64,000 bases of DNA from Isoetes taiwanensis (Eukaryota; Streptophyta; Lycopodiopsida; Isoetales; Isoetaceae), in contig JAJEKV010000063.1 in the NCBI GenBank assembly GCA_021234155.1, forward strand, positions 8,390,095 to 8,454,094. The letters run 5' to 3'. A program made the translations under genes and the position numbers. Below, piece by piece: positions 2,500 through 64,000 of the stretch (position 1 is its first letter; every line of letters begins with the position of its first letter). The notes beneath the pieces are model-generated. The model ran no database searches. It saw only the letters and a program-made list of their open reading frames with translations, and had not been told where the DNA came from.

Positions 2500-4425
2500 A
2501 TATTGAAAATGCAGCTTAATCCAAAAAAGAGAAAAAAAAATTATTCCCATACAGAACACGATTTCTTGAATTCCAAATATTCCAGAGAGCAGTATGAATA
2601 ATGATATTTAAGAATTTGTCATTGGATTGGATATATTGACTGTGAAAAATGCCAAATTTAATACTTCGCCAAGACCAGAAGCCATTAAGCTTGTTGCAGA
2701 AAAAGATATGACTCATAGTTCCATCATTACCGCATAGCACAGGGCAACTAGCAGAAATATTGGGATTTCTCCTTGATAAGGAATGGAGATTATTCCAATT
2801 ACCATGAGCAATAAGCCAAATGAAACAACAGATCTTAGGTGGACAGTAAAAGTTCCAAACATTACAGAACAAGGCTTTAAGCTGATCAGCATTAGTTGGC
2901 TACTTTGTCATAGCTTCGCATGGAGCATCATTGTAATTAAGGGCATTGTATACAGTCTTAACTTTATATCCACTTTACCATCAATACTCCAATCTCCGTT
3001 CCTGGATTTTGATTTAGGGTAGATAAGTTACACACCAAATGTTTAAGATGGAGGAAGATCTTTTTATCTGAAGAAGTGCCCTTTATAACTACTTTTAGCC
3101 TAGTCCATGGGATGAGCCCATTATTGGAGAAGAGATCTCTAACATAAATAAAACCTGCATTAGACCATTTCTTGCAGATTATTGGATGCCTAAGGGCAAG
3201 CACAGAAGAGTCATGATCAGCTAGAATTGGATTCCAAAAAATGGGCATATTAATATGAAGTTTATTCCGTGAGACAAAAGCGTAATTTGAAGAGATTGAA
3301 TTCCAGTCTTCAATGATATTGCACATCAAAGGAGAGATATTAGAGGCGGGATTGAGATTAACAAAGGCAGAGTTAGGAAGCAGATTGTGAATTGTAGGGT
3401 GACCATATGGATGACTTTCCCTTATCCAGTATCTAATGAACTCAGAGGCTAGAGATTGATTACGATGGATAGCCTTCCAAATGAACTTTCCTTCTAAGGA
3501 TTGAGCTTGAAGGAAAATATTCTTGCAACCAAGGGCCCCCAAAGCTTTGGACCTGCAAATAGAATCCCAATTCACAAGATGTTTGCCATTCCAAATGAAG
3601 CCTCTTAAAACTCTCTCAAGCTCTCGATAAATCAGCTTAGGAGCTACCAAAGCAGTGGAAAAATATACATGAGAACTTGCCAAGACTGAATTTGCAATTA
3701 TAGTTCTGCCAACAAGGGAGAGAGTGGTCCTGTAATTATTAAGTTTCTTCTTGATTCTAGATAAAATTGGATCCCAAAGGCCTTTAATGCTATGATTCAA
3801 AGATAAAGGCATACCCAACAACTTAGTAACTTGAAGAGGAGAAAGAACCTTAATACACGCCAGACTTTGATGAGTAGAGTCTCCAACAATCAAACTTTTA
3901 TCAACGTTAGTTGGATACCAGAAGCAGTAGAGAATTGCTTGAGAATTTTGAGAAAGAACACAATGTTTGAGACCTCAGCATCAGAATACTAAGGGATTAT
4001 CTAGAATCAGGAAGTTGTAGGCCTTTAATCATACCAGTGTAATAGCTTTAGTGCAATTCAGCTACAACTAGGAAAAGATAAGGGGCAAGAGGACATCCTT
4101 GTCTGACACCTTGAGTAAGAGGGAAGAATCCAGAAGGGGAACCATTAATAAGGACAGCTAAATTAGAGCGAGAGTTTAAACCATGAATAAGATTTCTCAA
4201 TTTAGGAAGGAAGCCAAGCTTACACATAGCAAAGTCAAGGAAATCCCATCTCACAAAATCACAGACACGCTTGAAGTCCAATTTTAGAAGAACACAATTT
4301 TCATTGGAAATCTTGTTCCGATGAGACCCTCCGTAGCAGCTTTCCAGTGGAGACATTCATTTTGTACATATTCTTGTTGATTAATAAACTTTTGATTCGT
4401 CCTTCAAAAATAAAATAAAATGCCA
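2500..4425 (-). mobile_element. LINE relic, apparently 5'-inverted (twin primed)
   Basis: The main body (about 2516-4310) encodes a plant L1-like reverse transcriptase on the minus strand and has no endonuclease domain, so it is 5' truncated. Abutting its 5' side, but on the plus strand, is what looks like the 3' end of a plant LINE (about 4340-4425): a GTTGATTAATAAA-like stretch followed by an A-rich tail with AAAATAAAATAAAA. An inverted internal segment followed directly by the 3' tail is the product expected from twin priming during target-primed reverse transcription. The alternative is two separate LINE fragments side by side. Confidence 0.65.
2516..4356 (-). pseudogene. Non-LTR reverse transcriptase (LINE pol C-terminal part)
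   Basis: Three minus-strand open stretches are collinear with plant LINE pol. Positions 4356-4048 carry the RT core, with LKLDFKR (catalytic Asp block) and the block TQGVRQGCPLAPYLF. Positions 3893-2964 carry the thumb/connection with SLVGRTIIANSVL. Positions 2872-2516 carry the C-terminal zf-RVT-like segment with PPKICCFIWLIAHG. The region between the first two (about 4000) should hold FADD but reads LDNPLVF, so one catalytic Asp is lost. Stops and frame changes also separate the blocks. The enzyme is dead and the copy is old. Missing upstream parts are ORF1 and the APE endonuclease. Confidence 0.85.
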
Positions 4426-4429
4426 TTTT

Positions 4430-4769
4430 AATGCATAAGAATGACTTCAATACAATAGAATTAATTGTCATAAATGGTACAAGAGAATGCAGGTTTTTTC
4501 TCAGAAAAATTGTCAGACTGTCTAAAAAGATTTGGCCTGATATTTATACTGGCAAAATTTCTAACGAAAAACTCTCTGACGCATGTAGTGATGATGCTGC
4601 ATTAGAACATTCATCAACTTATTCGTCAGATTGTACGTCAGTATTTGTATTAGATTTTTTTTTTTTTCTCTCTCTTTATTATAAGTAGTGATGGAATGCA
4701 GTATTATATGTTGCTCAAAATATTTTTGAATGCAAGAGATAAAAATTAAAAGTACACCTCCTATTGGAG
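4430..4769. other. Spacer between LINE relic and HUH element
   Basis: Nothing coding is recognisable. It holds a T-run followed by a CT-rich stretch near 4657-4678 and ends at the first iteron-like motif of the following element. Confidence 0.35.
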
Positions 4770-5208
4770 ATATCTAGCATTATAGCAGGGTTTTTTTTTT
4801 GTGATTTTATACGCTTTTTGGCATGGTTTTCCTATGATTTTAGTGCTGTATTCATTGGGCCATACTAAATAGTATTTCTAGAGTGCGGCTTTTTTGGAGC
4901 GTTGATCTGGATTACCTTCAACAATCTAACGGTTGTTATTTTGACCTCTTCATTCATATGCATGAAACTAGAAAAGTTCTCTTCTCTGAAAAGTTTTGGT
5001 GGTGTTGTTGTCGATCCGTCCTATTGATCCGTCTTGCTCTGTCTTCATTCAACAAATTTGGTATGCCAGATATTGCTTTTTTGTTTGCTAACAATGTTTC
5101 TTGTTTTAATCGTATTTTGAATATCTAGCATGAGTATGGCGAAGAAGCATTCATAAAAAAATCCATTGTTGATTCTGTTTTACAACCTTAGTTCCCTGAA
5201 TTTTATGA

Positions 5209-5285
5209 TCTTTGATGGCAGATATTCATCTTATTGGAAAGAAATGTATCTTGTGATCTTTGATGGCAGATGTTCATCTTATTGA
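5209..5285 (+). repeat. Short direct repeat, 2 copies
   Basis: A unit beginning GATCTTTGATGGCAGAT occurs at about 5209 and again at about 5253 with few changes, followed in both copies by a TTCATCTTATT(G)GAAA segment. It lies inside the HUH element just left of the larger tandem array. Confidence 0.7.
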
Positions 5286-5399
5286 AAACAAAATGCATTG
5301 GTAGATTTCAGATTTGGTGTTGTTTTATTTGGTGTTGCTTTTGGAATTCCGAAACCTGCATGCAAATATCTAGCATGCAAAATTGGAATTGGAGTTGGA

Positions 5400-5712
5400 G
5401 CAGAATCTGCCTGACAGAAATTGGCCGCCATATCCAGATCTTGCAGTTTTTCCTTAAGTTTATCTTCCTGAACTTTACCTCTGAAAACCATTGGCCCCTC
5501 AGGCCGAAACTCGAGCCATGACTTCACTTTATTAAGGGCAGAATCTGCCTGACAGAAATTGGCTGCCATAGCCACATCTTGCAGTTTTATCCTAAGTTTA
5601 TGTTGATGAACTTTACCTCTGAAAACCATTTGCCCCTCAGGCCGAAACTGGAGCCATGACTTCTGTTAAGGAGCAGAATCTGCCTCACAGAAATTGGCCG
5701 CCATAGCCAGAT
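5400..5712 (+). repeat. Tandem repeat, about 138-bp unit, 2.3 copies
   Basis: Units starting GCAGAATCTGCCT begin at 5400, 5538 and 5673 (spacings 138 and 135). The third copy stops after about 40 bp. Units share most bases, including an inner block around CCCCTCAGGCCGAAACT. The array lies upstream of the HUH gene, among the iteron-like motifs. It explains the open frames seen on both strands here, which are not genes. Confidence 0.9.
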
Positions 5713-6042
5713 CTGCTGAATTTTTTTTATGTAAACCCTTCGGAATCTGTGTCTAGCATGCTAAGATAATTTCTTTTCAATATCTAGCAACACCAGAGTT
5801 AAATTCGGCCCTCAGATCGCCCTATTCGATCGGCTTTGCATGCCTCCTTGTAAGCAGCTGCCATGTTCGATTGAACAAACTCTAACGGTGCCCTAATATC
5901 CGGCTGTTTCGAAAATCCCATGCTTCCTGACCTTTGCTTTCTTAACTATTCACCTAAAATTTAAAATCTCGCCCTTCCTTTCAATATCTAGCATTATGCC
6001 CATTCTTTAAGTTTGTATGGAAAAATGAAATGCTACAATATC

Positions 6043-6062
6043 TAGCAATATCTAGCATTATA
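6043..6062 (+). repeat. Left arm of 20-bp inverted repeat
   Basis: TAGCAATATCTAGCATTATA here is the exact reverse complement of 8444-8463. The pair brackets the HUH gene and the downstream small open frame, about 2.4 kb apart, and could be the terminal or subterminal inverted repeat of the element. Confidence 0.8.
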
Positions 6063-6192
6063 TCATCTACCATATTACTTTTTATGGTTTACTAGTATTA
6101 CAAGCTTGTATTACTCGTATTATTACTACCATTACTAGTTATTAACAATTGTGTTGTTCTTTTAATGCTAGATATTAGATCTAGATATTACA

Positions 6193-7754
6193 ATGAGACG
6201 AATGGCACGAAACAGACGAGGCCCAGGCTCAACATCACGAACGGGAGTCATGCAGGCAGAAGGCATCACGTATGAGATAAATCACCCTGCACAAGAAAAT
6301 GTCGTGGAAGCTGAAGAGGCCCAAATCAACGAACGTGTCGGGGTATTTTGCAATATATTACATCTTAATAAGTCTCCGCCACGTCAAGATCCCGGACCAT
6401 CTAGCCCTATTAGAGATTGCAGTCCTATCAGGCAGACAAGAAAAGGAAAGCAACCTCTTATTGAAGATGATGATACAGATTTGATTAGCATTCATACGTC
6501 TAGCCCAAGTGACACAGATTATTTTGAAAATAACCAAAGAAAAAAAAAAAAGAAAAAGAATAAAGAAGCAAGGGAAGAACAAGCAACAACGCAAAACTAA
6601 ATGGCCAGTTGGTGGAGATGTATCCATAACAATAGGAATTGGGGGCACAGATATCGACCCAAAATTGATAGATAATATCCTAGAGTTCTTTATTGAGCAT
6701 TGTCATGCATACTAGTTGCAACAGAGCGTGGATCAAATCTAGATCATTTGCACTTCCAAGCCACAGCCAGACTCAAAACAATAGGAGTCCGGGATGCTGC
6801 AACATTACTCAAAGTAGCCCGGGGATGTCACATAGTTTAAGGCGTATATACCATGTGAGTGAAAGGGGTGGATTTTTTTTTTTTACCCTAAACCGTATGT
6901 ATAAATACGGATAGGGGCTCGGCTAGGGGGTTTTCTGGGCGGGAATCTAGTGCAATATGTATACGGGAAGGGGCGTTTAGAAGGTTGGACAAGGCGTAGG
7001 GTTTTTTGTTGACCCCATTAACGCATGTGGTGTATCACCTTTATAGTAGGTGAAACCCCCGGGCAAAGTAGCTATGAGATGGAACACCACAAAGCCAGCT
7101 GGAGCCAAAATAATGTGCAGGACGCTGAAGGACACAAAGCTGCATTGCTTTGAAGGTATGCTAGGTTATTGCATGAAGGACTTTGGAAAGCCTCATTTCA
7201 GTGTGCGCATGCATAATGTCTCATCAGCAGAATTGATGAGAGGGAAAGAAAAATATGCGCTGTATGGAGCAGGAGAAATCAAAGATGAGGTTTGTCTAGA
7301 TCCTAAAAACTTACTCATTAAAGTCCGTCACTTTGCGAATTATCACATGACCAATCGTCGTAAGCCATCATTGACGTTCACAATCACAAAGATGATCAAA
7401 ACAGGAAAGTTCTATCTCAGCACACAATGGGCTATACCTACTAACGACCAAAACGTAGACCAAAGAAAAGTTGAAGCTGCATATGATCTAATGATGAACC
7501 CATTCCAAGCAACCCGTGAGAAAGTATCGTTAGTTCTTTATGGGCCACCGACTAATGATCCAGCATGCCCGTCAAGAGCCTGTAGCAGTAATCCATTTGC
7601 TAATCCCCCAAGGTACTTTGACGACAACGAAGATCCGGACGAAATCATTGAAGCACATGTTGCAGACAGACTCCAAAATACAATTGTAGTTGGAGATTTG
7701 GGTGATAACGAAATTATCCTCACCAACTGGAACTCATCTTTTGCAGCAGAGTGA
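6193..7754 (+). CDS. Rep-type HUH endonuclease of a Replitron-like element (disrupted)
   Basis: HUH endonucleases nick one DNA strand and stay joined to the 5' end through a tyrosine, which starts rolling-circle-type transposition. An acidic/basic, low-complexity N-terminal part (6193 to about 6560) leads into the nuclease fold. There is a beta strand VSITIGIGG (about 6636-6662), the metal-binding HLH triad at 6745-6753 followed by FQ, and the nucleophile motif GYCMKD with Tyr at 7167-7169 and Lys at 7176-7178. A further 190 residues of unknown fold end at 7754. Reading order is frame 1, then frame 2 (shift in the A-run near 6540-6570), then frame 1 again near 6712. A stop at 6838 and a gap to 7050 follow, which may be an intron (GTGAGT at 6855, TAG before 7050). 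No helicase domain is seen. Either two frameshifts or additional introns break the gene; this copy is probably inactive. Confidence 0.75.
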
Positions 7755-7873
7755 CACTTACGGGTATTGAATAGAACACTATAGTAATTGTCATCTAGTT
7801 TAATATCTAGTATAATAACATATTATTTCATTACGTTTTTATTTGCTCAATCTCATCAATTTGTTTTGTTAAC

Positions 7874-8290
7874 GTGCAGGTTGTAGAAGCCCCCAATGAA
7901 TCACCTCCACGTGACATCCTCGTCATTCCTGAAGTAAACAATAATGTGGAGCCAGAAACTATCATAGTACCAGAAAGCCCAACAGTTGAAGTTCAAGTTC
8001 AGTTAGTTTCTCCGCCATCAGCACAACCACCACCTCCACATGGCGAGGACCCTATTGACGTTATGTCACTGTGGTTAGTTGGATATATCAATGACATGCG
8101 CTCGTCTATGCAACAAATCCGTAACGCACTGAACTCAATTGAGAACATTCTTGATGCGCACATTCGTTTGGACATAGACCAGTGGAGGCAATTACGTGCG
8201 CAAATAAATAGGCTAACTGCCCTCTGCAGGTTGTTTGATAGGCAAATCAACGAAGATGTGTATCACATCTTAAGTCGCTATCCATATTGA
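7874..8290 (+). CDS. Small acidic/coiled protein or 3' exon of the HUH gene
   Basis: The open frame starts right after a good splice acceptor (TTAACGTGCAG before 7880), so it may be the last exon of the HUH gene rather than a separate gene. It encodes a Pro/Val/Glu-rich N-terminal half with a PPPPH stretch. A helical C-terminal half follows (about residues 60-130, with regularly spaced Leu/Ile and Gln/Arg), suited to a coiled coil or helical bundle and perhaps oligomerisation. It ends at 8290 just inside the right inverted repeat. I recognise no named family. Confidence 0.5.
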   Translation: MQVVEAPNESPPRDILVIPEVNNNVEPETIIVPESPTVEVQVQLVSPPSAQPPPPHGEDPIDVMSLWLVGYINDMRSSMQQIRNALNSIENILDAHIRLDIDQWRQLRAQINRLTALCRLFDRQINEDVYHILSRYPY

Positions 8291-8443
8291 ATGCTTATAA
8301 ATGGATATACTACGTTTACTATCTCCAATGACTAAATAAATTCATAAATAATATGTTCTTAAAGCGTATGTAATAAAATTACATTATGGTATAATATTAT
8401 AGTTCGTTACTTATGCTTCATATTAGTATTTATTTTTATTTGT

Positions 8444-8463
8444 TATAATGCTAGATATTGCTA
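8444..8463 (-). repeat. Right arm of 20-bp inverted repeat
   Basis: TATAATGCTAGATATTGCTA is the exact reverse complement of 6043-6062. Its TAGATATT core is also where the similarity with the reverse copy at 50749 begins. Confidence 0.8.
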
Positions 8464-8782
8464 CATGTTTTACATCCGACATATTATCAATTACACAACA
8501 TAACATCAACTCATCCAAGTGTAATGTAATGTTGTTTGTTTTTGGAGGGGCAAATTTTTTTTTTAGCTATAACACAAACCATTACATTACACATCTTAAA
8601 ATTAAATTCCCCCTTAAACCCCCTTTTGTTTGGGTGCATATTCACACGGAGGGTGACGTAGGGCAACGAGAGTTGTTGGATAGGCATATTCACCCCTTAT
8701 TCCTTAATCTACACCGTACACAAAGTTCCTCGTTTGTGGAGTATGGATGTATGGAATTTGCTATACTGTATAACAAGATTTG
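8452..8782 (+). repeat. 331-bp dispersed repeat, copy 1
   Basis: This segment is matched along its whole length, in reverse, by 50416-50749. Both copies begin at TAGATATT and end at ATAACAAGATTTG, after which they diverge. It contains two C5 runs separated by TTAAA (G-runs on the other strand) at about 8611-8626, conserved in both copies, and a palindrome-like TATACTGTATA near its end. It directly follows the HUH element, so it may be that element's 3' terminal region or a separate short element inserted at TAGATATT. The open frame across it is not a gene. Confidence 0.8.
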
Positions 8783-8789
8783 GAAAGGG

Positions 8790-9470
8790 TAAGGTCTATT
8801 GGAAAGGGTTTTTTGAAATAATATATTCTACCAGCGTTTTCGGCCATTGAAAATCTGGAACTGTAGTGTCACCTAGATCTTCTTGTGAATCTCAATGGTC
8901 TTACAGAAAATGGCACGGTGCATGAGCTGGTATATTGCCTGGATTGCTAGTCAACAGTTTGTTAGGGTTCGTACTGCTCAAGCATATGCTCTACGACATT
9001 GGATAATTCAGTATTTTGAGGTTATATACTGCATCCAGCTCTAGAACCAAGACATGTTGCGCATTGAGCCATCTGGCTTAGAAAAGCTTAATCGAAAGCC
9101 AAGATATTGTAGTTGTTCCTACCAGCAAGTATTTGAATCCATTTGAATCCGTTACTGATCAGAACCCTGAGGCTGCAAGCTCTAGTGAGAAATTAGCTAT
9201 GCAACATGCATGCCATGGAGCAATCTGGAGGCAGCACCAGAACTGAAGTCATGGATAAATCTTCCCATCTCCAATTGGTTCAATTCTGATCAATCTGGTG
9301 CGAGCGTATCCTCCACAACAAAACAAGCTTCTTCCCCATGGAAAACCCCTTTCCCAAGAAATCCAGAATAATATTGTAGCATTTATATAATCTAACAATG
9401 ATCTTGCATGCATGCACATACTGCATGCATGGACACATTGCCTGCATGTATTCCTAGCGCATAATCATTT
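8790..9470. other. Intergenic, nothing recognised
   Basis: No coding similarity, repeat or RNA gene is apparent. GCATGCAT-type alternating motifs recur near 9400-9445 but form no array. Confidence 0.35.
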
Positions 9471-9479
9471 ATTTCATCA

Positions 9480-9998
9480 TTGAAAACACACTCCTATATA
9501 ATGGCAACGTTACTTACACCTTCATGTGGTGCTAAGTTGCTAGGTCCGTTACAGAAGCCCCTAACTGTCTCAATTGAGATGTGGCTCCATAAGAAAATAC
9601 TTAAGACTTTGATGATCTTTAAGGAATTTTATATCCAGCAAGTAATGACACCATATTTTCAAAGCATATACTGCTGTAGCACTTCCAAATCATGTGCTGG
9701 GTAATTTTACTTTATGCAGGGGTGAGCTTTTCAGATTCATAAGCGCAAACCTTGCCATGCCTCCAATTCATGTCCCAGAAGCATCAATAATTACGCAAGA
9801 TTCCTTATCCATAGAGAGAATCTTAATATGGGCGCTTATGTTAAAGCATCCTTTAGAAACTGAAAACTTTCATCGCATTTTGGATTCCACTAGAAAGCAG
9901 CTTCTTTCTGTAGTAAGGTTGTCAATGGGAAAGCTATCTTAGAGAATTATTTAGCAAACTTGAGATAATAGCCAGTTAGGCCTAGAAATGCTCTAATG
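9480..9998 (-). pseudogene. Ty3/gypsy pol relic, RNase H side
   Basis: Conceptual minus-strand translation with several stops follows gypsy pol just after the RT: RAFLGLTGYYLKFAK at the right end (about 9990-9945), then a WNPKCDESFQFLKDAL block and a NYPAHDLEVL block. This part continues the RT fragment found at 11043-11760. The two halves were separated by the insertion at 9999-11042. Confidence 0.75.
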
Positions 9999-11042
9999 CC
10001 ATCGATCCGAGCCATCGGATCGAGATTCTCGAATGGGTGAACATGCATCCGTCCCATGCAAGCATGCATTGCATGCATTTTCTAGGGCTCTGGTTCGTTT
10101 GGGGATCGCTATTTCTTGTAGGTTCTTCATCGACTTCTCATCGGCATTTTTTCCTCTCTCAGCAGTTCCCTTGACTCTCTTTCTTTGATACCAGGCAGTG
10201 AAGGGGCTTCTCCCTGCTTGGTTTGCCAGTTTGACGTCTTTTTCTATGTTGTGACCTGTTCTTCCCCAATCTTGTCCCTTCTTTGGCCATCCTTCAACCT
10301 TCGACCTCAATCCCGTTTTGATAAGGAAGCTCTCTTTTTGTCGGGAGCTTTTGTCGGTTTTCATACGAGCCCTTATTCGAGAATGCCATCGATCCGAGCC
10401 ATCGGATCGAGATTCTCGAATGGGCGAGCATGCATCCGTCCCATGCAAGCATGCATTGCATGCATTTTCTAGGGCTCTAGTTCGTTTGGGGATCGCTATT
10501 TCTTGCAGGTTCTTCATCGACTTCTCATCGGCGTTTTCTCCTCTTTCAGCAATTCTCTTGGCTCCCACCCACGCACCTTAATGTGTATATTATTATAAAT
10601 GTTGTTTTTTGTCGCGTGGCATGCGTGAACAGCCCCTCGCTTTTTCGAGGTGTAAATATTGTTTTTTGTCGCGTGGCACGCGTGACCAGCCCCTCGCTTT
10701 TCAAGGTTTTTTCTCTATTAGTTTTTCTGTTGGTGATGTGCAGGTCCAGGGGTGATGGCGACTTCGGTATTCTCTGTGGAGCGTGTGTCTTTTTTTGTGG
10801 GAACGTTTAGCAGCCCTACGTTGTCCAAGCCCCTTGCTAGATTTTATCGCTAGGGTTTTTCCTCGAAAACCCAAAAGGGCGGGGTTTTTAATCCCGGCGA
10901 TAAGTTCTCGGCAGGTACACTAGCCAACATCTGTAGCACATAATTATATTTGGGGTCCAGGTGTTATAACTGGATATTCCCTATGTCAGCCTAGCTGGAG
11001 TCGGGAGCTTTGTCGGTTTTCATGCAAGCCCTTATTCGAGAA
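9999..11042 (+). mobile_element. Nested insertion made of two related units
   Basis: The insertion splits a gypsy pol relic between the RT and the FLGLTGYY block. Unit A (about 9997-10383) and unit B (about 10384-11042) start with the same roughly 190-bp sequence (ATCGATCCGAGCCATCGG) and end with the same 45 bp (CCCTTATTCGAGAA). They differ in their middles, and B is longer. B holds a further tandem pair around 10601-10650 and 10660-10705 (GTCGCGTGGCA). No transposase is present, so this is a non-autonomous element or a duplicated host-derived fragment. The open frames on either strand here are products of the duplication. Confidence 0.65.
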
Positions 11043-12041: not shown

Positions 12042-12298
12042 AAGGTTGGGTTCACATGCAGCAGTTGCCTCAGATGGGCCTCGTTTTACCCTTCGTAACT
12101 AGGGATTCCCTATGACGTTGCTCAAAAAACGACGAGGCGTTTTGCATGACTCTGATAGCTTCGACGATGCATGTGAACCTAGCCTTAGGAACAATTCACT
12201 TGCAACATCGAAGCCATCAGAGTCATGCAAAATGCCTCGCCGTTTTTCGAGCAACAGGGCATCCGCTATTTATATGGGGTAATGTAAACCCAGCCTAA
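12042..12298. repeat. Foldback (hairpin) element
   Basis: Positions 12117-12165 and 12207-12255 are near-perfect inverted copies of about 49 bp (GTTGCTC...CTTCGA), separated by about 40 bp. An outer motif GGTTGGGTTCACATGCA (12044-12060) pairs with TGCATGTGAACCTAGCC (12168-12184), and a third related copy is at 12280-12297. No coding capacity is present. It looks like a miniature foldback/MITE or nested pair, and its transcript would fold into a long hairpin. Confidence 0.75.
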
Positions 12299-36849: not shown

Positions 36850-37900
36850 ATATTTGTTGTTCCTTCTAAAAGATTCTAGAACAACTTAGAAAACTCCTGA
36901 AGTTTCTAGAACATCCCAGAATAATTGGAACATTTTTTTAGAACATTCTAAAATTATTTGAAATATTATAGAATTTTCTAGAGCATTTTAGAACATTCTA
37001 ACTGTGAACTGGAATGCCCATCCTCACGTAGGTGGCCCCTTTATATACTGGAAAAGGAGTCTTTTGTTTACACAAATGCATATAGAATATTTGTGTACGA
37101 ACGGACGGAAGAGATGGGCCACTAGATCCGACGGCTCAGATCGCGCCAATCAGAACATTCTAGAACTTTCCAGAACATCCTAGAAGATTCTAGAGCATTC
37201 TAAGAACATTCTAGAACATTCTAGAATTTTCTGGAACATTGTAGAACTATCTAGAACATTCTGGAACTTTTTAGAACATTCTGTCTTAATTAGATTCTTA
37301 TCCTTAAGTATGTATCAATTTTTTTAATGAATCAATGCCTGGTCCAATGTTTAAAATAGGGGATTTGGTGGGCAATGATCAGGATTCAAATCCCTTAAAT
37401 AACATAAAAAGTTTTAAAAGCCTTCCCTTAAGGCCCGAGCAACGTGAGCCATAGGACCTTAGGGCCCGATCAACGTGAGCCATAGGATCTTGAACCAAGG
37501 TTCAAGATCAATTTGGATCGTAGGATCACGTAAGATATATCTAAAGCAACGTGAGTCGTAGGATCTCGGATCGACAATCAGGATCAAATCAGCCTGGATC
37601 TGAGCATGCAACATGAGCGTAGGATATATGTAAAGCAAGGTGAGCCATAGGATCTCGGATAGACGATCAGGATCAAATCAACTTGGGTCGTAGGATCGAT
37701 TACATATGTTACATACAAACGCTTAAAGCCGTAAGATCTGCCCAAAGTAATGTGAGTTGCAGGATCTCGGACCGACGGTCCGGATCAAATTAACCTGGAC
37801 TGTAGGACCGATTACATATGTTACATACAAACTCCCAAAGCCGTGTGGGCCATAGGATCCATCCCAAAACGACGTGCGCCGTATGATGGTCAAAAATAAC
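36850..37900 (+). repeat. Composite repeat family, left copy (HSE-like / tRNA-like / GATC tandem)
   Basis: Three blocks in order. First is an array of TTCTAGAA-related units (about 36868-37290), including GAACATTCTAGAACATTC at about 37204. Second is a decayed tRNA-like segment (about 37333-37405) with TGCCTGGTCCAATG and GGATTCAAATCCC. Third are GATC-rich tandem units with GGATCTCGGA at 37561, 37650 and 37762 (spacing up to 112 bp). The same three blocks occur in reverse at 44050-45390. The family is non-coding; a pol III-type SINE with unusual flanks is one reading. Confidence 0.7.
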
Positions 37901-44049: not shown

Positions 44050-45390
44050 ATATATGTTCTTATGTTTGTCGCGCTTATCCGACTGTCCGTTCGAGATCCG
44101 ACGGCTCACGTGGCTTTGGGACGTATCCTACGGCCCAGGTGGCTTGGGAGTTTATATATAATCCGTATAGACACGATCCTACGGTCCAGGTTGATCTGAT
44201 CCTGACCGCCGGTCCGAGATCCTACGGCTCACGTGGCTTTGGGACACATCCTACGGTGCACGTGGCTTTGGGAATTATATGTAATCGATCCTACGGTCCA
44301 GGTTGATTCGATCCTGATCGTCGATCCAGGATCTTACGGCTCACATGGCTTGGCATATATTCTACGGTGCACATGACTTTGAAAATTATATGTAAATTAT
44401 ATGTAATAGATCCTATGGCTCATGTTGCGTGAGATCTCGACCCTTGATCGGGTCCAAGACCCTACGGCCCAATTTGAATGCTCATCCCTTAGGAAAAGGC
44501 TTTTAAAATTTTTATGTTGTATGGGGGATTCGAACCCTGGCCATTGACCCCCCAACCCCCCATTTTAACGACTAGACCAAGCATTAATTCCATGAATAAT
44601 TTGTGTTTCATATATACTTAAGGGTAATGTTTCTATTAAGATAAAATAGATTATAATATTCTAGCTAGTTCAAGAAGGTCCTAGAATGTTCTGGAAGGCT
44701 CTAGAAAGTTCTAGAATCTTCTAGAAAGTTCTAGAACATAAGAGAATCTAGGGGGAATCTAAGAAAATTCTTCCAGAAAGTTCCAAATTGTTCTAATAAG
44801 TTTTAGAATGTTCTAGAATGTAGGGGAATCTACGGGAATGTAAGGAAATCTAGGGAAATACTTCCAGAAAGTTCTAGAATATATTGAAAGTCTTTGAATG
44901 TTCTAAAAAGTTCTAGAATGTAAAAGAATCCAGAAGAATCTAATAGAATGTAAGAAAATCTTATAAAATGTAAGAGAATCTAGGAAAATATTTACAAGCC
45001 TAAGGGAATCTCTTAAAATCTGGAGGATCTAAAGGAATCTTCATAAAATCTAAGGGAATCTAAGAAAATGTTGATGAAATCTTAGAGTATCTAAGGGAAT
45101 CTTTATAGAATCTCTTTGAATCTAAGGGAAATCTGATAAAATCTAAATGAATCTAAGAGAATCTAAGGGGATCTTCATAGAATCTTGGAGAATCTAGAGA
45201 AATTTAATAGAATCTAGAGAGAATCTTATAAAATTTAGAGAAATGCTCACGAACCCTCTAAGAGAACCTTGGTAGAATCTTAGAGAATCTATTAATTTAG
45301 AGTATTCTCAAGAGATTCTTTTACAAGAACTTGCACGTAGGAACATGCTAAAACTCGAACATGCATCGTAGGACGTATTAAATTTCTTGT
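44050..45390 (-). repeat. Composite repeat family, right copy (inverted)
   Basis: Read on the minus strand from 45390: a head ACGTCCTACGATGCATGTTC and TAGCATGTTCCTACGTGCAA, degenerate TCTAAGATTCC-type units (to about 44900), TTCTAGAA-type units (about 44900-44650), a tRNA-like segment with clear box A and B (44592-44520), then GATC/ACGGCTCACGTGG tandem units of about 112 bp (44470-44060) and a (GATA)n tail near 44040-44021. It is the inverse of 36850-37900 and more complete. Confidence 0.75.
44520..44592 (-). promoter_or_regulatory. tRNA-like pol III promoter (box A and box B)
   Basis: On the minus strand TGGTCTAGTCGTTAA fits box A and GGGTTCGAATCCCCC contains a perfect box B (GGTTCGAATCC), about 35 bp apart as in tRNA genes. 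A full cloverleaf with a 7-bp acceptor stem is not evident, so this is more likely the head of a tRNA-derived SINE inside the composite repeat than a working tRNA. Confidence 0.6.
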
Positions 45391-50030: not shown

Positions 50031-50415
50031 AAAGGATTTTTTTTGTATTTTATAAATAAAAAGTACATAGTACAATGTTTCAAATTTCATAGAGGACTAC
50101 TATAGGAGAAGCCTCGACATCTTCCCCCATGAACTAGAACTTAGTGGATTGAGCAACATGAAAATAAAAGAAATACAAGACAGAGGTGATAGATAACAAA
50201 ACCTGATTCTCAATGTCCTCTGAATCGACTAAAAGAGTTACCTAATAGAGGGTGTTTTCGACTTCCATTATCCATCAAAGAGCCCATGCATCCTTGATGC
50301 AGCAGACATCGTGGATCTAGAACAGTCACAATCACTTCTACCTGTATATAACTTTTGAAGCAGGATAGGTAGACAAGCCATATCACCAAGCGGCCTGAAA
50401 TCTTATAGTATTTTG

Positions 50416-50749
50416 CAAATCTTGTTATACAGTATAACAAATTCTGTACATCCATACCCCACAAACGAGGAACTTTGTTGACGGTGTAGATTAAGGAATA
50501 AAGGGTGAATATACCTATCCAACAGCTCTCGCTGCCCTACGTCACCCCCCCGTGTGAATATGCACCCAAACAAAAGGGGGTTTAAGGGGGAATTTAATTT
50601 TAAGGCGTGTAATGTAATGGTTTTTGTTATAGGTTGAAAAAAATTTTTGCCCCTTCGGGGCCAAAAACAAACAACGTTACATCACACTTGGACGAGACGA
50701 TGTTATATTGTGTAATTAATAATATGTCGTATTTTTACTGAAATATCTA
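50416..50749 (-). repeat. 331-bp dispersed repeat, copy 2 (reverse)
   Basis: Reverse partner of 8452-8782, of similar length, with scattered substitutions and small indels. It keeps the paired G5 runs (about 50574-50590), the TATACTGTATA-like end and the TAGATATT start. No HUH gene or iterons flank it, so it is a solitary terminal fragment or a non-autonomous relative. Confidence 0.8.
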
Positions 50750-50759
50750 ATAGGCCTGA

Positions 50760-51390
50760 TGGCCCCGTGGGTGGAAATAAACAACTGCTTTCTTAGCAAT
50801 CTAATATTGGCTTATAGCAACATGCAAGGGTTGGTTGGCATAGTGAGATAACAAAAATAAAAGAGTAAGAAATGCAAGGCCAAAAATGTTACTTTCAGAT
50901 ACAAGGCCATAAGAGGGTCTTCTTGCAGGGATAGATTCCCTATCAACATTGCTTGGAAATGCAGTGCAGTTTATTATTTAAAAACAACCTTGTTGAAAAT
51001 AAACTACTTGAATCAGATGTGGAAAGCCTTGACCTTAACTCCAGCATAAGATTTAACACCAGCATAAGATGACTAAGTTGTGCCAAAAGCTCGACGATTA
51101 AATGATGATTAAATTTGATACTAAGCATGTGCAAACAGAAAAACATCACATAGAACCTAGAAGCAAGCATAAATTACCCAGTATATGTATGCAACCGATA
51201 TGATTTGGAATATTAATATACATCACAGACATGGCTGATTCCAAGTTAGCTTCCCACCAAGATGATATACATCGCAGACATAGCTGATTCCAAGTCAAGC
51301 TTCCCACCAAGATAAAGATCATGCAATACCCAGGGTATTTGAATATTCACTTATATAAAGTGACACATGCTGTTGGTCACCGCAGGGTCT
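50760..51390. other. Intergenic, short repeat pair
   Basis: A unit containing ACATCGCAGACATAGCTGATT is present twice (near 51220 and 51268), each followed by CCAAGT...AAGCTTCCCACC-type sequence. Nothing else is supportable. Confidence 0.35.
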
Positions 51391-52310
51391 CGTCCCATCA
51401 TCTTGAAATTGAAGCTGATCCTAAGGTCAATCGTTGAAGAGGATCTGCAAACTGTGCTATATGAACATAATTGAGTTGCGTGCCCAAAAGCAGGTGTGCT
51501 TGGGTATAGGCATACCTCTTTGGCTTTGCATCATGTTTGAGGACATGATTGCCTGGTGCAACCACACTTGGTTGCTCAGTCCTTAGCAATCTCTGTTGAT
51601 AACAACAAACAAACATTCTAACTTGAACAAAATTGTACAGAAAAAAAATGCACCCAGGATGAAAATATCAAACATTATAAAGTGCCCGACCTGGATGAAT
51701 CCTGTGGGGAGTATCACCGCTCAATCTGCAAGATGTGTTCCGGCAGAGCGGGTCCCTCTTGAAGCTCAAGTCGGGGCTAAGGGAGTTCGGCTTCCGCATG
51801 GAACACCACAGACTGCTGCAAATGGGAGGGGATTACCTGCAGCAAAGCAGGGCATGTAATCTCCACAAATTATTTGGATGCCAGTGTGCCCGTTTCTACC
51901 CCGGGCGTGTCGCATGCAATTATCCGATGTTGGAGCTTCATTCGGCTTCCCTCCATAGCGTGCTACAACTTTTTGCAGGGATTTTTTACGCCCAAATATC
52001 TTCTCGGACAAAAAGATTAGCCTCTTTTGTTTCAACCAAGAAGCTTCTACTACGTTCTTTCCAGGCCAGCCCTCTTTTGGGTTATAAGTGCTTCATACCT
52101 GAAGAATGAATTGTGAGAAAAGCACCATACCAGAATTTCATAAACCCAGACGTCTCAGCACCAATTACTCGGCTCACTAATTACCAGGTTGCAAATTCTG
52201 TGGTCTTAAATGTGGACAACCATGATCCCATCTACTTCAGCCATTCCAATCTTTCCTCGTCTGACAGCTCGGGTTCAACTTTAGGTTGGGGTCCTGGTTA
52301 GCATCTTTCT
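51390..52310 (-). other. Possible unrecognised gene or gene fragment
   Basis: GC content rises and several protein-like stretches appear, more convincingly on the minus strand. These are 51616-51398 (LLRTEQPSVVAPGNHVL ... GTQLNYVHIAQFADPL), an acidic segment near 52295-52240 (PKVEPELSDEERLEWLK), and a possible start MAEK just before a GTAAAG donor near 52436. A plus-strand frame (51735-52109) competes. Stops interrupt the simplest joins and I do not recognise the family. Confidence 0.3.
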
Positions 52311-52896
52311 CGATTTTTGCAAAGAAAAGATCCGACCCATCAGATTCCATGAATCAGAAACCAAGCAAAGCTAAACCTTATCTGCCATAGCCGAAAAAAG
52401 AAGTAAAAAACCCAGCAAAATCTTTACCTTCTCTGCCATAGCCGGATTTGTGCCGGGATTTCCGGCTGTAGGCTGCTCAAACAAAGTCCCGATGACCCTA
52501 GCCCTGCTCAAAAAAGAACAATTACTCTAAAATATTTGTCCGAGTCTTGCACAGCAATTTAGGCTGAACAATCGAGAACAATTGTTAAGAAAAGAATCGG
52601 CCATGAATAAAGCCCCGACTTTTGAAACCCTAAAACAATTTTATCGACATCTGCATGGCTCCAAAACTCCATGACCATAGGATTGCATTTCTTATTCAAA
52701 ATCAACGGCTCAGAAAGAGTGCACTCTAGATATACCGTTTAGTACATCTGCACGAATACAGCAATGAAATCATAGTAAAACCATGTCAGAAAAGGTATAA
52801 AAACACAAAAGTAACCCCCTGTTATTATGCTACATATTTAACATGTACGTGATTTAACTAGTATGCCCCGCACCGGATAGCAAAATGATGGATAGT

Positions 52897-53050
52897 TCCA
52901 CTCTCAGCAACAGATATCTTGGCTCTTGCCACGATGAAGAATGCAATGAAATGCGATACATGATGTGAATTGCAGGACTCCGTGAATCATTGAATATTTG
53001 AACGCAACTTGCGCCCTAGGCTTGTCCGAGGGCATGTCTGGCTGAGCGTC
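52897..53050 (+). rRNA. 5.8S rRNA, decayed copy
   Basis: The sequence follows plant 5.8S from CTCTCAGCAACAGATATC through CGATGAAGAATGC, ATGCGATACATGATGTGAAT, TTGCAGGACTCCGTGAATCA and TTTGAACGCAACTTGCGCCC to the GAGGGCATGTCTG end. Many substitutions, mostly of the C-to-T/G-to-A kind, hit positions that are otherwise nearly invariant, for example GAAGAACG read as GAAGAATG. It is a pseudogene copy outside the functional rDNA array. Confidence 0.85.
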
Positions 53051-53291
53051 TAATCGTCCCTCTTGCTCGCACTGGCTGCGAAGCGTAAATTGGCTGTCCA
53101 TGGCGAGCACATATTCGCCTGGAGTGCATAGGGAGGACGCCGCACTCTAAATGCATCGCATGACTGGCGGGGTTGATTCGAGTTATCGTTGCTTCCGGCT
53201 GCGGCTAGTACTAGGCAGTGTCCCCCACCTGCCAACATATTGCTCATTGCTAAGGTGTCGGCCGGTTCCCTTGTGTGGCCATTACCCAAGA
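53051..53291 (+). other. ITS2 spacer (rDNA fragment)
   Basis: The 240 bp between the 5.8S-like and 28S-like parts is the right length and position for ITS2 and is GC-richer than its surroundings. Open frames here have no meaning. Confidence 0.7.
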
Positions 53292-53590
53292 GACCTCAGC
53301 TCAGGCAAGGCTACCCGCTGAGTTTAAGCATATTATTAAGCGGAGGAAAAGAAACCAACATAGCTTTTCCTAGTAACGGCGAACGAACTGGAAGGTGCCC
53401 AGATTGAGAATCGTGGCATTTTGCATTGCGAATTGTAGTCTGTAGAAGCGTCCTCTGCGGCGGACCAGGTCGAGGTTCCCTGAAAGTGGACGCCTGAGAG
53501 GGTGAGAGCCCTGTCAGGCCTGGACCCTGTTGCTCCACGAGGCGCTCTCCACGAGTCGGTCTCAAAAGTATGGAATGGGCTACCCCTTGG
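53292..53590 (+). rRNA. 28S rRNA 5' end, decayed and truncated
   Basis: It begins at the 28S start with CTACCCGCTGAGTTTAAGCA, then AAGCGGAGGAAAAGAAACCA, CCTAGTAACGGCGAACGAAC, GAATTGTAGTCTG(T)AGAAGCGTCCTC and AGAGGGTGAGAGCCCTGTC, and fades after CCACGAGTCGG. Only the first 300 bp of a molecule of over 3 kb are present, with many substitutions. No 18S or further 28S is found nearby. Confidence 0.88.
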
Positions 53591-58845: not shown

Positions 58846-59144
58846 TGACGAAACTTATGATTTATGCTAGAACCAACAGCAAGAAATAAGATAGACAGAG
58901 TGAAAACTCAGAAAAAAGAAATACGATGGATTGGTTTTTTTTTTTTTTTTTTGGTGCTATAGAAGATAGTCACATATGTGACGTATAAAGCATAGCACAT
59001 GGACATGCTAACTATATCCTAACCTAGCGAGGGGCATACATGAACGTAAATGCATAATAAACTATAAATCATGGTCCTATGTAAATACATAGGCTGCCAT
59101 GTCAGCACATATATGTGCTTAACCATTAAGAGGTATCTCTGTCA
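58846..59144 (-). repeat. 3' LTR of copia element
   Basis: It starts TGACGAAACTTATG and ends ATCTCTGTCA on the plus strand, giving the TGACA...TGTCA ends expected. It contains a long T-run at about 58937-58952. The plus-strand base after it begins TCCTCCCC, the complement of the polypurine tract. Confidence 0.85.
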
Positions 59145-59353: not shown

Positions 59354-62300
59354 TCACGCAAAATGATAATGTGTTTTAATGTATTTGATGCGGGCATGAA
59401 ACACAGGATTATTAGCAAGTTGCAAAGAGTTTTGGTTATCACAATAAAGTGAAATAGTGTTAGTGTCAAAGCCTAATTCTGCAAAAAGTTTGGCTAACCA
59501 AACAGATTCAGTAGCAGCAATTGCTAAGGTTTTATACTCCGCCTCCGCACTCGAAAGACAGATGAGGGTGGATGCTTGCTGAGCCAAATAATGATGTTGT
59601 TACCAAGGCCAAAAACATAACCCGTGGTGCTGCATCGCATATCAAACAACATCTACAAAATCATGTAAAGAAGGCGACTGATCATGCGTATAGCAGAGGC
59701 CCTCATTAAGAGTACCTTTTAAATAGGCAAGCACTCTTTTTGCTGCTTGCCAATGGCTCTATTTTGGACAGGCCATAAAATGGCTCAACATGCCCACCGC
59801 AAAAGAGATCTCATGTTTAGTGACTGTAAGATAAATCAGTCCACCAACAAGTGAGCGATACAAAGTAGCATCTACCTGAGAAGGCGACTCGTCATAGGTG
59901 GATAACTTCAAACCAGGCTCCATGGGCTATTTCGCAACCTTGCAATCTGTCATATGAAATTTTGTGAGAAGATCTTGGACGTTCTTAACTTGAGACAGAG
60001 TGATGCCATCGTGAGTTTGCCAAATTTCAATCCCAAGAAAGTAATGGGACAGATCTAAGTCTGTCATAGCAAATTCATGTATAAGCGAAGTGCGCAATTG
60101 ATCAATAAGATCATGGGCATCTCTTGTAAGCAGCAAATCATCAACATACAACACAACAATGCAGAGAGATGTACCTTTAATTTTAAGTACAAATTGAAAT
60201 CTGTTGTGGAAGAAGAATAGCCATGTGCTTTAAGATAAGAATCTATCTTGTGATACCAGCATTGAGGTGCTTGTTTGAGTCCGTAGAGATTCTTATTCAA
60301 TTTACAGACTAATGCCCTTGCCCTTCCGAGACAAAACCTTATGGCTGTTGTATATAAACTTCATCGAACAGGTCTCCACTCAAGAAGGCATTTTGGAAGT
60401 CCATTTGATATACGGGCCAACCCTTACTAGCTGCTAAGGCAAAAATAGCATGGCGGTTGATAGTCTCGCAACTGGAGCAAAGACTTCATCGTAATCAATG
60501 CCCTACTGCTGAGCGAATCCTTTGGCAACAAGTCCGGCCTTATGTTTTCTGAGAGATCCATCTACATTGTATTTTTCTTTAAAGATCCATTTTGAGCCAA
60601 ATGCTTTTTTCCCTTTAGGAAGGAGAACGAGATCCAAAGTCTCATTCTTAATGAGTAGATCATATTCATGTTGCATCGCAGCCACCCAATCTAGATTGGT
60701 AAGGAGTTCAGCAAAACTAGAAGGTGTATGCTCTTCATAGATCTTTGCCATCAAAACGAAATTACAAGTGTGCATAACACGTGGTTGTGCATCAGATAAG
60801 ACATTTAAGCCGCTCAGATCGCCTAAAAGGCACACCATCATCATGATTTTCAACAGGAGATAGGGCTGAAGCAGTCCTAAAACTACTAGCAAGCTGATTG
60901 GCAACTTGAATATCAGACAAGGTAGCAAGATACGGATCATTTTCGTCATCATCATTATGATCACAAGGGCTGAATGTATACAACGGCAACTGGAGCAACG
61001 TTAATTGCATTCTTCTGAGTATTAAAATCAAGCAAAGAATGAATATCAAAGGAGGCTCCAACATCATGCTCGAAAGCATCATAGTAGCCATCCTCAAAGA
61101 ATTTTGCATCAGGACTGATCACATGCTTCTTAGTGGATGGGTTATAGAATTTGTAAGCTTTATATCCATCAGCATACCAATGCATTTGACTGCCCGATCA
61201 TCAAGTTTCTTTATTTTTGAATGAAAATGCACAAAAGCAGGACAACTAAAGATTTTTAAATGCGAGACATCAGGTTTTGTACCATAGAACACCTTGAAAG
61301 GTGTTTGGCCTTTCAAAATTTTTGTGGGAGCTCTATACAAAAGATAGGTTGTTGTTTTAACTGCTTCACCCCAAAATGACATCGGCAAATGTTTATAAGC
61401 AAGCATGCTTCTTGCCAAATCCATGGGAGCAAGATTCTTGCGTTCGACTACACCATTTTGTGGCAAACAATACGAAGCACTCAACTCGCAAACAATGCCA
61501 GAATCTCGAAGATAGGCATCAAAAGAATGGTTCTTGTGCTTACCACTATTGTCGGACCTGAATGCCTTAATCAACTTCCCTGTTTGTTTTTCAACCATAA
61601 TCTTAAACTCCTTAAACTTAGAGAGTACATCGGATTTGTAATACAAAGGGTATACCCACGTCATCCTAGAAAGATCATCAATAAATGTACAAAAGTAGTG
61701 TGCTCCACTCAAAGAAGGGACCCTGATTTCACATACATCATTATGCACGAGCTGCAAGATATCATTGTTTTCTTCACGGCCTCCTTGGGGAAAGATGCAG
61801 CTACTTGTTTTCCAAGACTACAAGCATCACATTGCAGTTCATGAGTATGTACAACAGGCAGCCCAACAACCATCTTTTTTCCATGCATCATACAAAGAGA
61901 TAAACAACTCAAATGACCATAATGAGCATGCCACAATTCATTCGAAGACATGTTAATAGGAGTAGCAGCAACAAACAAACCTTTATGCTCTGCAACAGAA
62001 GCACAAAACTTATGCAAACCATTTTAGAGAATTCCGTGAGCAACAATTTCAGAGTTGAGAATGACAGGACACGTAGGAGTAAGTATAACTTCTCCTTGTC
62101 CAACTATAACATGCAAGCCACTGTTATCAATCTTAAAAATGGATAGCAAATTTTCTTCAAGTCCAGGAATGTAAGTAACATCTTTAACATACTTCATGCT
62201 ACTTTCCTGAGTAGAAAATGTGACTTCACCCTTCCCTTGAATCTGATAGCTGAAATTATCAACAAATTTGACTCGACTATCACCCATTTATTATATTTAG

Positions 62301-63651: not shown

Positions 63652-63943
63652 TGACAAAACTTATGATCTAGACTAGAACCAACAACAAGAAATAAGAGAG
63701 AAAGAGAGACGGAGTGAAAACGCAGAAAAAGAAATATGATGGATTGATTGATTTTTTTTCTTTTTTTTGGTGCTACAGAAGATAGTCACATATGTGATAT
63801 GTAGAGCATAGCACGTGGACATGCTAACTATATCCTAACCTAGCTATGCGCATACATGAACATAAATACATGGTATAAATCATGGTCCTATGTAAATATA
63901 TAGGCTTCCATGTCAGCACAAATGTGTGCTTAACCATTAAGAG
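63652..63943 (-). repeat. 5' LTR of copia element, outer end missing
   Basis: It starts TGACAAAACTTATG and matches the left LTR to ACCATTAAGAG at 63943; the last 12 bases of the left LTR (GTATCTCTGTCA) have no counterpart. Nine bases further on, 25 bp (63953-63977) are identical to the sequence lying directly before the left LTR (58821-58845). Confidence 0.8.
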
Positions 63944-64000
63944 TTATTATAATTTATCATATTGGCCATGTGCATAGTTTCTTAAAAGTTCACAACTTTT

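Follow-up and report, generated by a model that had tools for sequence, protein, structure and literature searches.

A probable decayed Replitron and its non-autonomous relative in a 64-kb stretch of a plant genome

Introduction

What kind of mobile element lies near the start of the 64-kb stretch of plant DNA analysed here (the window), where does it begin and end, and can it still move? A preliminary description had placed an HUH transposon of Replitron type at positions 4770–8463. Replitrons were reportedly first described by Craig in PNAS in 2023. In the part of a review available to us (PMC10741241), they are given as elements of 0.9–4 kb with target duplications of 2–8 bp, short direct terminal repeats of 5–11 bp and no terminal inverted repeats, and their hosts as green algae, liverworts, mosses, lycophytes and ferns. 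The accessible part of a further paper (PMC13253262) names the Replitron in its reference list only, and a literature search on HUH endonuclease transposons and ferns contained, judged by title, no work on plant transposons among the matches listed.

The element is a further example of this already described kind of transposon. We regard it as highly probable that copy A (4770–8786, about 4.0 kb) is a once autonomous Replitron of a plant that has since decayed, and that copy B, at a distance of 42 kb, is a non-autonomous relative.

Results and discussion

The Rep gene and its family

The coding region of copy A comprises the following pieces:

6193–6600, plus strand: putative N-terminal coding piece in frame 1, without known domain (ORF, Pfam)
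6602–6709, plus strand: first piece of the HUH domain in frame 2, with VSITIGIGG (ORF, Pfam on the joined pieces)
6712–6834, plus strand: HLH piece of the HUH domain in frame 1, HLH at 6745–6753 (ORF, Pfam)
6835–7049, plus strand: probable GT-AG intron, phase 0 on both sides, weak donor GTTTAA (read from the sequence)
7050–7754, plus strand: tyrosine piece of the HUH domain in frame 3, GYCMKD with its tyrosine at 7167, followed by further sequence and TGA (ORF, Pfam)
7880–8290, plus strand: tentative, possible 3' exon after the acceptor GTGCAG (sequence; no Pfam match)

Joined in genomic order, the coding pieces matched the Pfam family PF21859 (Replitron_HUH) with 64.5 bits and an E of 1.6e-17, covering positions 2–127 of the 128 in the profile. 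The ORF 7050–7754 alone reached 45.7 bits (cut-off 28.5, E 1.1e-11) at profile positions 68–127, and the HLH piece alone gave 12.3 bits (E 0.22, under the cut-off) at positions 32–62. The profile positions of the HLH piece fit ahead of those of the tyrosine ORF. The Pfam output carries no alignment, and we infer from order and coverage that HLH and the tyrosine lie on the active-site columns. No Pfam family other than PF21859 was matched by ORF 7050–7754 (E up to 1) or by the joined pieces (E up to 0.01). The codons of HLH and the tyrosine codon of GYCMKD, both named in the preliminary description, were found at 6745–6753 and 7167, and the YxxK motif contains one tyrosine. No helicase family was detected by Pfam in the five coding pieces (E up to 1) or, in a second scan, in four ORFs of copy A (E up to 0.5), in agreement with the helicase-free gene proposed before. 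The HMM search of the translated blocks, suggested there as a check, matched Replitron_HUH and neither the Helitron nor the CRESS Rep families. Altogether, the profile matches show that the gene belongs to the Replitron HUH family, with a single tyrosine in its motif and no helicase in the scanned pieces, and the claim of a single-tyrosine HUH transposon of Replitron type is borne out by the E values of the tyrosine ORF and the joined pieces.

CRESS-DNA virus Reps have an HUH and a single-tyrosine motif as well, and the gene could be read as an integrated CRESS or geminivirus-like Rep. This origin is considered most improbable, because Gemini_AL1 and Viral_Rep, like the helicases, were absent from the five coding pieces at E up to 1 (Gemini_AL1 and Viral_Rep also from the joined pieces, with a limit of E 0.01) and Replitron_HUH was matched instead. 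In addition, one scan of viral_contigs yielded one stretch that fitted a pattern and no relative, and the element ends are common to a copy without Rep (see below). Neither an SF3 helicase nor a capsid domain, nor any transposase family, was found by Pfam among the scanned ORFs of copy A.

Other searches gave little. PHROGs and NCBIfam showed weak matches only (E 0.04 or worse; those in NCBIfam far under their cut-offs), and the PDB sequence search one chance match (E 0.7). Among 5.8 billion proteins, plant proteins included, no relative of the ORF (E up to 0.01) or of the joined pieces (E up to 10) was found by searches that reach only proteins of similar length with exact words in common. 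The single-sequence structure model of 7050–7751 had a mean pLDDT of 31.0 and was of no use.

Decay of the gene

The gene is not intact, as its pieces lie in three frames: the upstream strand piece in frame 2, the HLH piece in frame 1 and the tyrosine piece in frame 3. The probable intron 6835–7049 could connect the HLH and tyrosine pieces, but the frame break near 6710 persists even with this intron. A second frame break separates the N-terminal ORF from the upstream strand piece, and an A-rich run near 6538–6567 is its likely site. The tentative 3' exon 7880–8290, which would follow a presumed intron at 7764–7879, would require that the TGA at 7752 is a later mutation. Because of the frame breaks and the stop at 7752 ahead of the possible exon, copy A has most likely lost its function, provided that the breaks do not stem from the assembly.

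Borders defined by a second copy

For the borders, positions 4300–9600 were compared with the whole window at E up to 0.01. Two matches outside this region were found, both on the minus strand and in matching order. Positions 4770–4914 matched 52837–52693 with 76.7% identity over 146 aligned columns (E 1.6e-23), and 8474–8786 matched 50732–50412 with 89.1% over 321 aligned columns (E 1.9e-117). Since both end matches share order and strand, 52837–50412 represents a second element with the ends of copy A, and since the two ends are common to copy B, copy A runs from 4770 to about 8786. The borders of copy A rest on these two copies:

4770–8786, plus strand: Replitron copy A, 4017 bp (homology with copy B; right border accurate to about 10 bases)
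4770–4914, plus strand: conserved left end of copy A (77% to copy B)
8474–8786, plus strand: conserved right end of copy A (89% to copy B)
50412–52837, minus strand: copy B, 2426 bp, non-autonomous, with unrelated interior and no Rep found (end homology with copy A)
52693–52837, minus strand: left end of copy B (homology with copy A)
50412–50732, minus strand: right end of copy B (homology with copy A)

The copies have nothing but these two ends in common, with order and orientation kept. The best match between the interiors scored 29.2 bits, compared to 24.6 on average and 31.0 at most for 30 random stretches of the window; the interiors are no more alike than random stretches. A tblastn search of the joined Rep pieces against the window returned the three pieces themselves and two chance hits (E 4.1), and no Rep in copy B. 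Judged by its sequence, copy B is a non-autonomous derivative or relative of the Replitron, 42 kb from copy A.

The right border at 8463 given previously has to be moved, as the homology with copy B extends to about 8786. The inverted pair 4770–4787/8441–8458 does exist, but its arms are not termini, since copy B lacks the inverted word. One could still argue for a 3.69-kb element bounded by these 18-bp inverted repeats (4770 and 8458), with 8474–8786 as an unrelated neighbouring repeat: the 18-nt arms are 94% complementary, and the 8474–8786 block begins only 16 bases past the right arm. We consider this unlikely. Copy B contains both the left end and the 8474–8786 block, ordered and oriented as in copy A, and lacks the inverted arm, and for this reason the 18-bp pair was rejected as borders. 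Moreover, both arms belong to the nine occurrences of an internal word, and Replitrons are without terminal inverted repeats according to the part of the review available (PMC10741241).

Two other origins of the right block were also rejected: a tRNA-derived repeat, as no tRNA was found in the window, and another RNA family, as 4700–8900 contained no Rfam match at E up to 0.5. The ORF 8427–8792 had a single Pfam match, under the cut-off (E 0.19).

Terminal sequences and target site

With the borders 4770 and 8786, the ends of the Replitron show the following features:

4761–4768, plus strand: CTATTGGA, left half of a candidate target-site duplication (flank comparison)
8519–8592, plus strand: larger inverted repeat, arms 8519–8540 and 8571–8592, kept in copy B (folding)
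8758–8776, plus strand: right-end hairpin TTGCTATA-CTG-TATAACAA, one mismatch in copy A (energy compared with shuffles)
8796–8803, plus strand: CTATTGGA, candidate right half of the duplication, after nine unexplained bases following 8786 (flank comparison)

The hairpin of copy B, TTGTTATA-CTG-TATAACAA, has a perfect 8-bp stem; that of copy A ends 10 bases short of the end of homology. In terms of DNA folding energy, the hairpin of copy A was matched by 135 of 200 shuffles and is thus no better than chance, and that of copy B by 14 of 200, a modest result. The larger inverted repeat was equalled by one of 200 shuffles in copy A and by none of 200 in copy B.

The left ends, ATATCTAG and ATATGTAG, start with AT and not TC in both copies, and the right ends, AAGATTTGGAAA and AAGATTTGCAAA, contain no CTRR. 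These observations bear on a further origin, a Helitron or Helentron remnant which has lost its helicase. The HUH nuclease, the hairpin close to the right end and a relative whose interior is unrelated would all suit such a remnant. Given the absence of both terminal motifs, and of Helitron_like_N from the Pfam results for the coding pieces and the joined pieces of copy A, this origin is very hard to credit, and the Replitron assignment is retained.

The longest direct word common to left and right end has 6 bases (TTTGTG in copy A, ATAACA in copy B), so direct terminal repeats of the 5–11 bp reported in the available part of the review (PMC10741241) were not clearly found in either copy. Inverted matches between the first 60 and the last 64–65 bases comprised only 9–10 bases with a mismatch; with the borders derived from copies A and B there are no terminal inverted repeats.

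The 12-base flanks of copy A share just 3 bases. The CTATTGGA pair is a candidate 8-bp target-site duplication of copy A; among 4000 random flank pairs each, 8 shared bases occurred in 0.375% for 20-base and in 0.7% for 25-base flanks. No target duplication is visible in the flanks of copy B.

A repeated word around the Rep gene

The left-end homology starts at 4770, which is the first base of the outermost copy of the word ATATCTAGCA. This word has nine exact occurrences in 4770–8459 and no others in the window:

4770–6057, plus strand: seven direct words, at 4770, 5121, 5366, 5780, 5984, 6038 and 6048
6166–6175, minus strand: inverted word, 17 bases from the ATG at 6193
8449–8458, minus strand: inverted word after the gene, in the right "terminus" of the preliminary description
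5397–5714, no strand: 138-bp tandem repeat, 2.3 copies, inside copy A (repeat finding)

Accordingly, seven direct words lie before the ATG, one inverted word near it and one inverted word past the gene. In 200 dinucleotide shuffles of 4770–8459, the commonest 10-mer occurred twice in 173 shuffles and three times in 27. The iteron-like repeat cluster noticed earlier is therefore real, with nine words compared to a maximum of three for any 10-mer in the shuffles. For 10-mers containing all four letters in other 3.69-kb stretches of the window, the top count was 7, reached by AGAACATTCT in the tandem array 37152–37282. With two mismatches allowed, AATATCTAGCAT gave 35 matches in the window compared to 11.5 expected. 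Copy B contains no exact ATATCTAGCA; when the 12-mer is allowed up to two mismatches, copy B matches it at the left end (one mismatch) and at 51664 (two mismatches).

Since copy B lacks the internal words, they are argued to be dispensable in cis for movement. For the same reason, control of the gene rather than of movement is proposed: most likely, the internal words are putative Rep-binding sites around the 5' region. Beyond this, an iteron-like control system is put forward tentatively. The left-end word would be repeated round the 5' region of the Rep gene, with seven direct words over 1.3 kb of which the first is the terminus; Rep would bind the words, one of them inverted 17 bases from the start codon, and so limit its own expression, and the non-autonomous relative would move with the terminal copy only. 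Alternatively, the words could be old left ends that remained after repeated capture of filler DNA. The word cluster may be the one new feature of the element.

The 138-bp unit at 5397–5714 was likewise confirmed. A captured gene within it was rejected: the four Pfam matches were all under their cut-offs (best E 0.016), and the one PDB match had an E of 0.66. Of the five ORFs in this Pfam scan, three gave nothing.

Host and genomic surroundings

AP-1 mu exons lie in the window on the minus strand, and their green-plant type supports the plant genome assumed before. The alignment contained 26 of 120 listed proteins, out of 1340 passing the threshold, and the search covered only proteins similar in length to the 190-residue query, so that complete AP-1 mu proteins from conifers, ferns, mosses or lycophytes fell outside it. 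Identity to 11 named flowering-plant sequences was 84–90% in nine cases and 81% and 70% in the others. A tree was built of 22 sequences, namely the host together with 12 named flowering plants and nine others chosen among the 120. In it the host groups with flowering plants, two metagenome sequences and Closterium at 100/99, and its nearest neighbours are the two metagenome sequences (87/79). Residues 8–9 are LF in all 11 named flowering-plant sequences and IY in the host, which hints at a position outside the flowering plants; however, sequence P0005, a tree neighbour of the host, also has LF. By tree and alignment the host belongs to the green lineage, next to land plants, and it is almost surely a land plant itself. 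Should it be a seed plant, the range of hosts given for Replitrons in the review (PMC10741241) would become wider. The window's own 5.8S motif was absent from the 30 papers listed, of 40 found, in a literature search.

Several other repeats were observed in the window. The ORFs at 2516–4356 (minus strand), which we presume to resemble a plant LINE reverse transcriptase, end about 400 bases ahead of the Replitron; Pfam gave nothing for the stretch 2964–3974 (E up to 0.01). Just past the Replitron, a 183-bp direct repeat occupies 9995–10177 and 10382–10564 (95% identical), and 12117–12255 is a 139-bp near-palindrome with an 82% match to its own reverse complement. Arrays of the 10-base units AGAACATTCT, TTCTAGAAAG and AATCTAAGAG lie at 37152–37282 and 44655–45290, and the two regions match in part as inverted sequences. 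Another repeat, dispersed and about 300 bp long, is found at 58846–59136 and 63652–63947 (85% identical). Retrotransposon remains at 61119–61817 (minus strand), which we read as Copia type, contain an SH3-like domain above and an integrase core just below the Pfam cut-off.

Positions 52899–53590 comprise a 5.8S rRNA (134 bits) and two parts of the large-subunit rRNA, starting 61 bases past the left end of copy B. In the whole window no small-subunit rRNA attained its gathering score, and the stretch is a displaced rDNA fragment.

Proposed transposition

For movement of the Replitron, we propose that an intact Rep encoded elsewhere in the genome would nick single-stranded DNA at the left end, at the word ATATCTAGCA, and remain attached via its tyrosine, and that the strand would be displaced by host enzymes. 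The end of the element might be recognised at the right-end hairpin (TTGTTATA-CTG-TATAACAA), and the freed strand would be joined into a new site, where 8 bp of the target might be duplicated. Copy B would be mobilised in trans by such a Rep, and if it moved in this way, the shared ends should hold the cis requirements.

A Rep-bearing copy and a Rep-less relative are thus present within one 64-kb stretch. The pair narrows the common sequence to a left part of about 145 bp and a right part of about 315 bp, the hairpin lying near the right end, and the narrowed ends offer DNA substrates for nicking assays.

Comparison with known systems

In contrast to DNA transposons with terminal inverted repeats, the ends of copy A carry no such repeats and its scanned ORFs no DDE transposase. 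With the Reps of CRESS-DNA viruses, copy A has the HUH and the single-tyrosine motif in common, but neither a viral Rep family of Pfam nor an SF3 helicase or capsid was present in the scanned ORFs. Helitrons resemble it in the HUH nuclease, the hairpin near the right end and the non-autonomous relative, whereas copy A has no helicase in its scanned ORFs, no 5'-TC and no CTRR-3'.

Compared to the Replitrons in the available part of the review (PMC10741241), the direct terminal repeats are not clearly seen in copies A and B. A further possible difference is the cluster of nine 10-bp words inside copy A. The candidate 8-bp duplication of copy A, if real, would agree with the 2–8 bp given there. 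The likenesses comprise the Replitron HUH domain of Pfam with one motif tyrosine and no helicase found in copy A, the plant host, as well as, measured against the same part of the review (PMC10741241), the lack of terminal inverted repeats in copy A and the lengths of 4017 bp for copy A (just over 4 kb) and 2426 bp for copy B compared to 0.9–4 kb.
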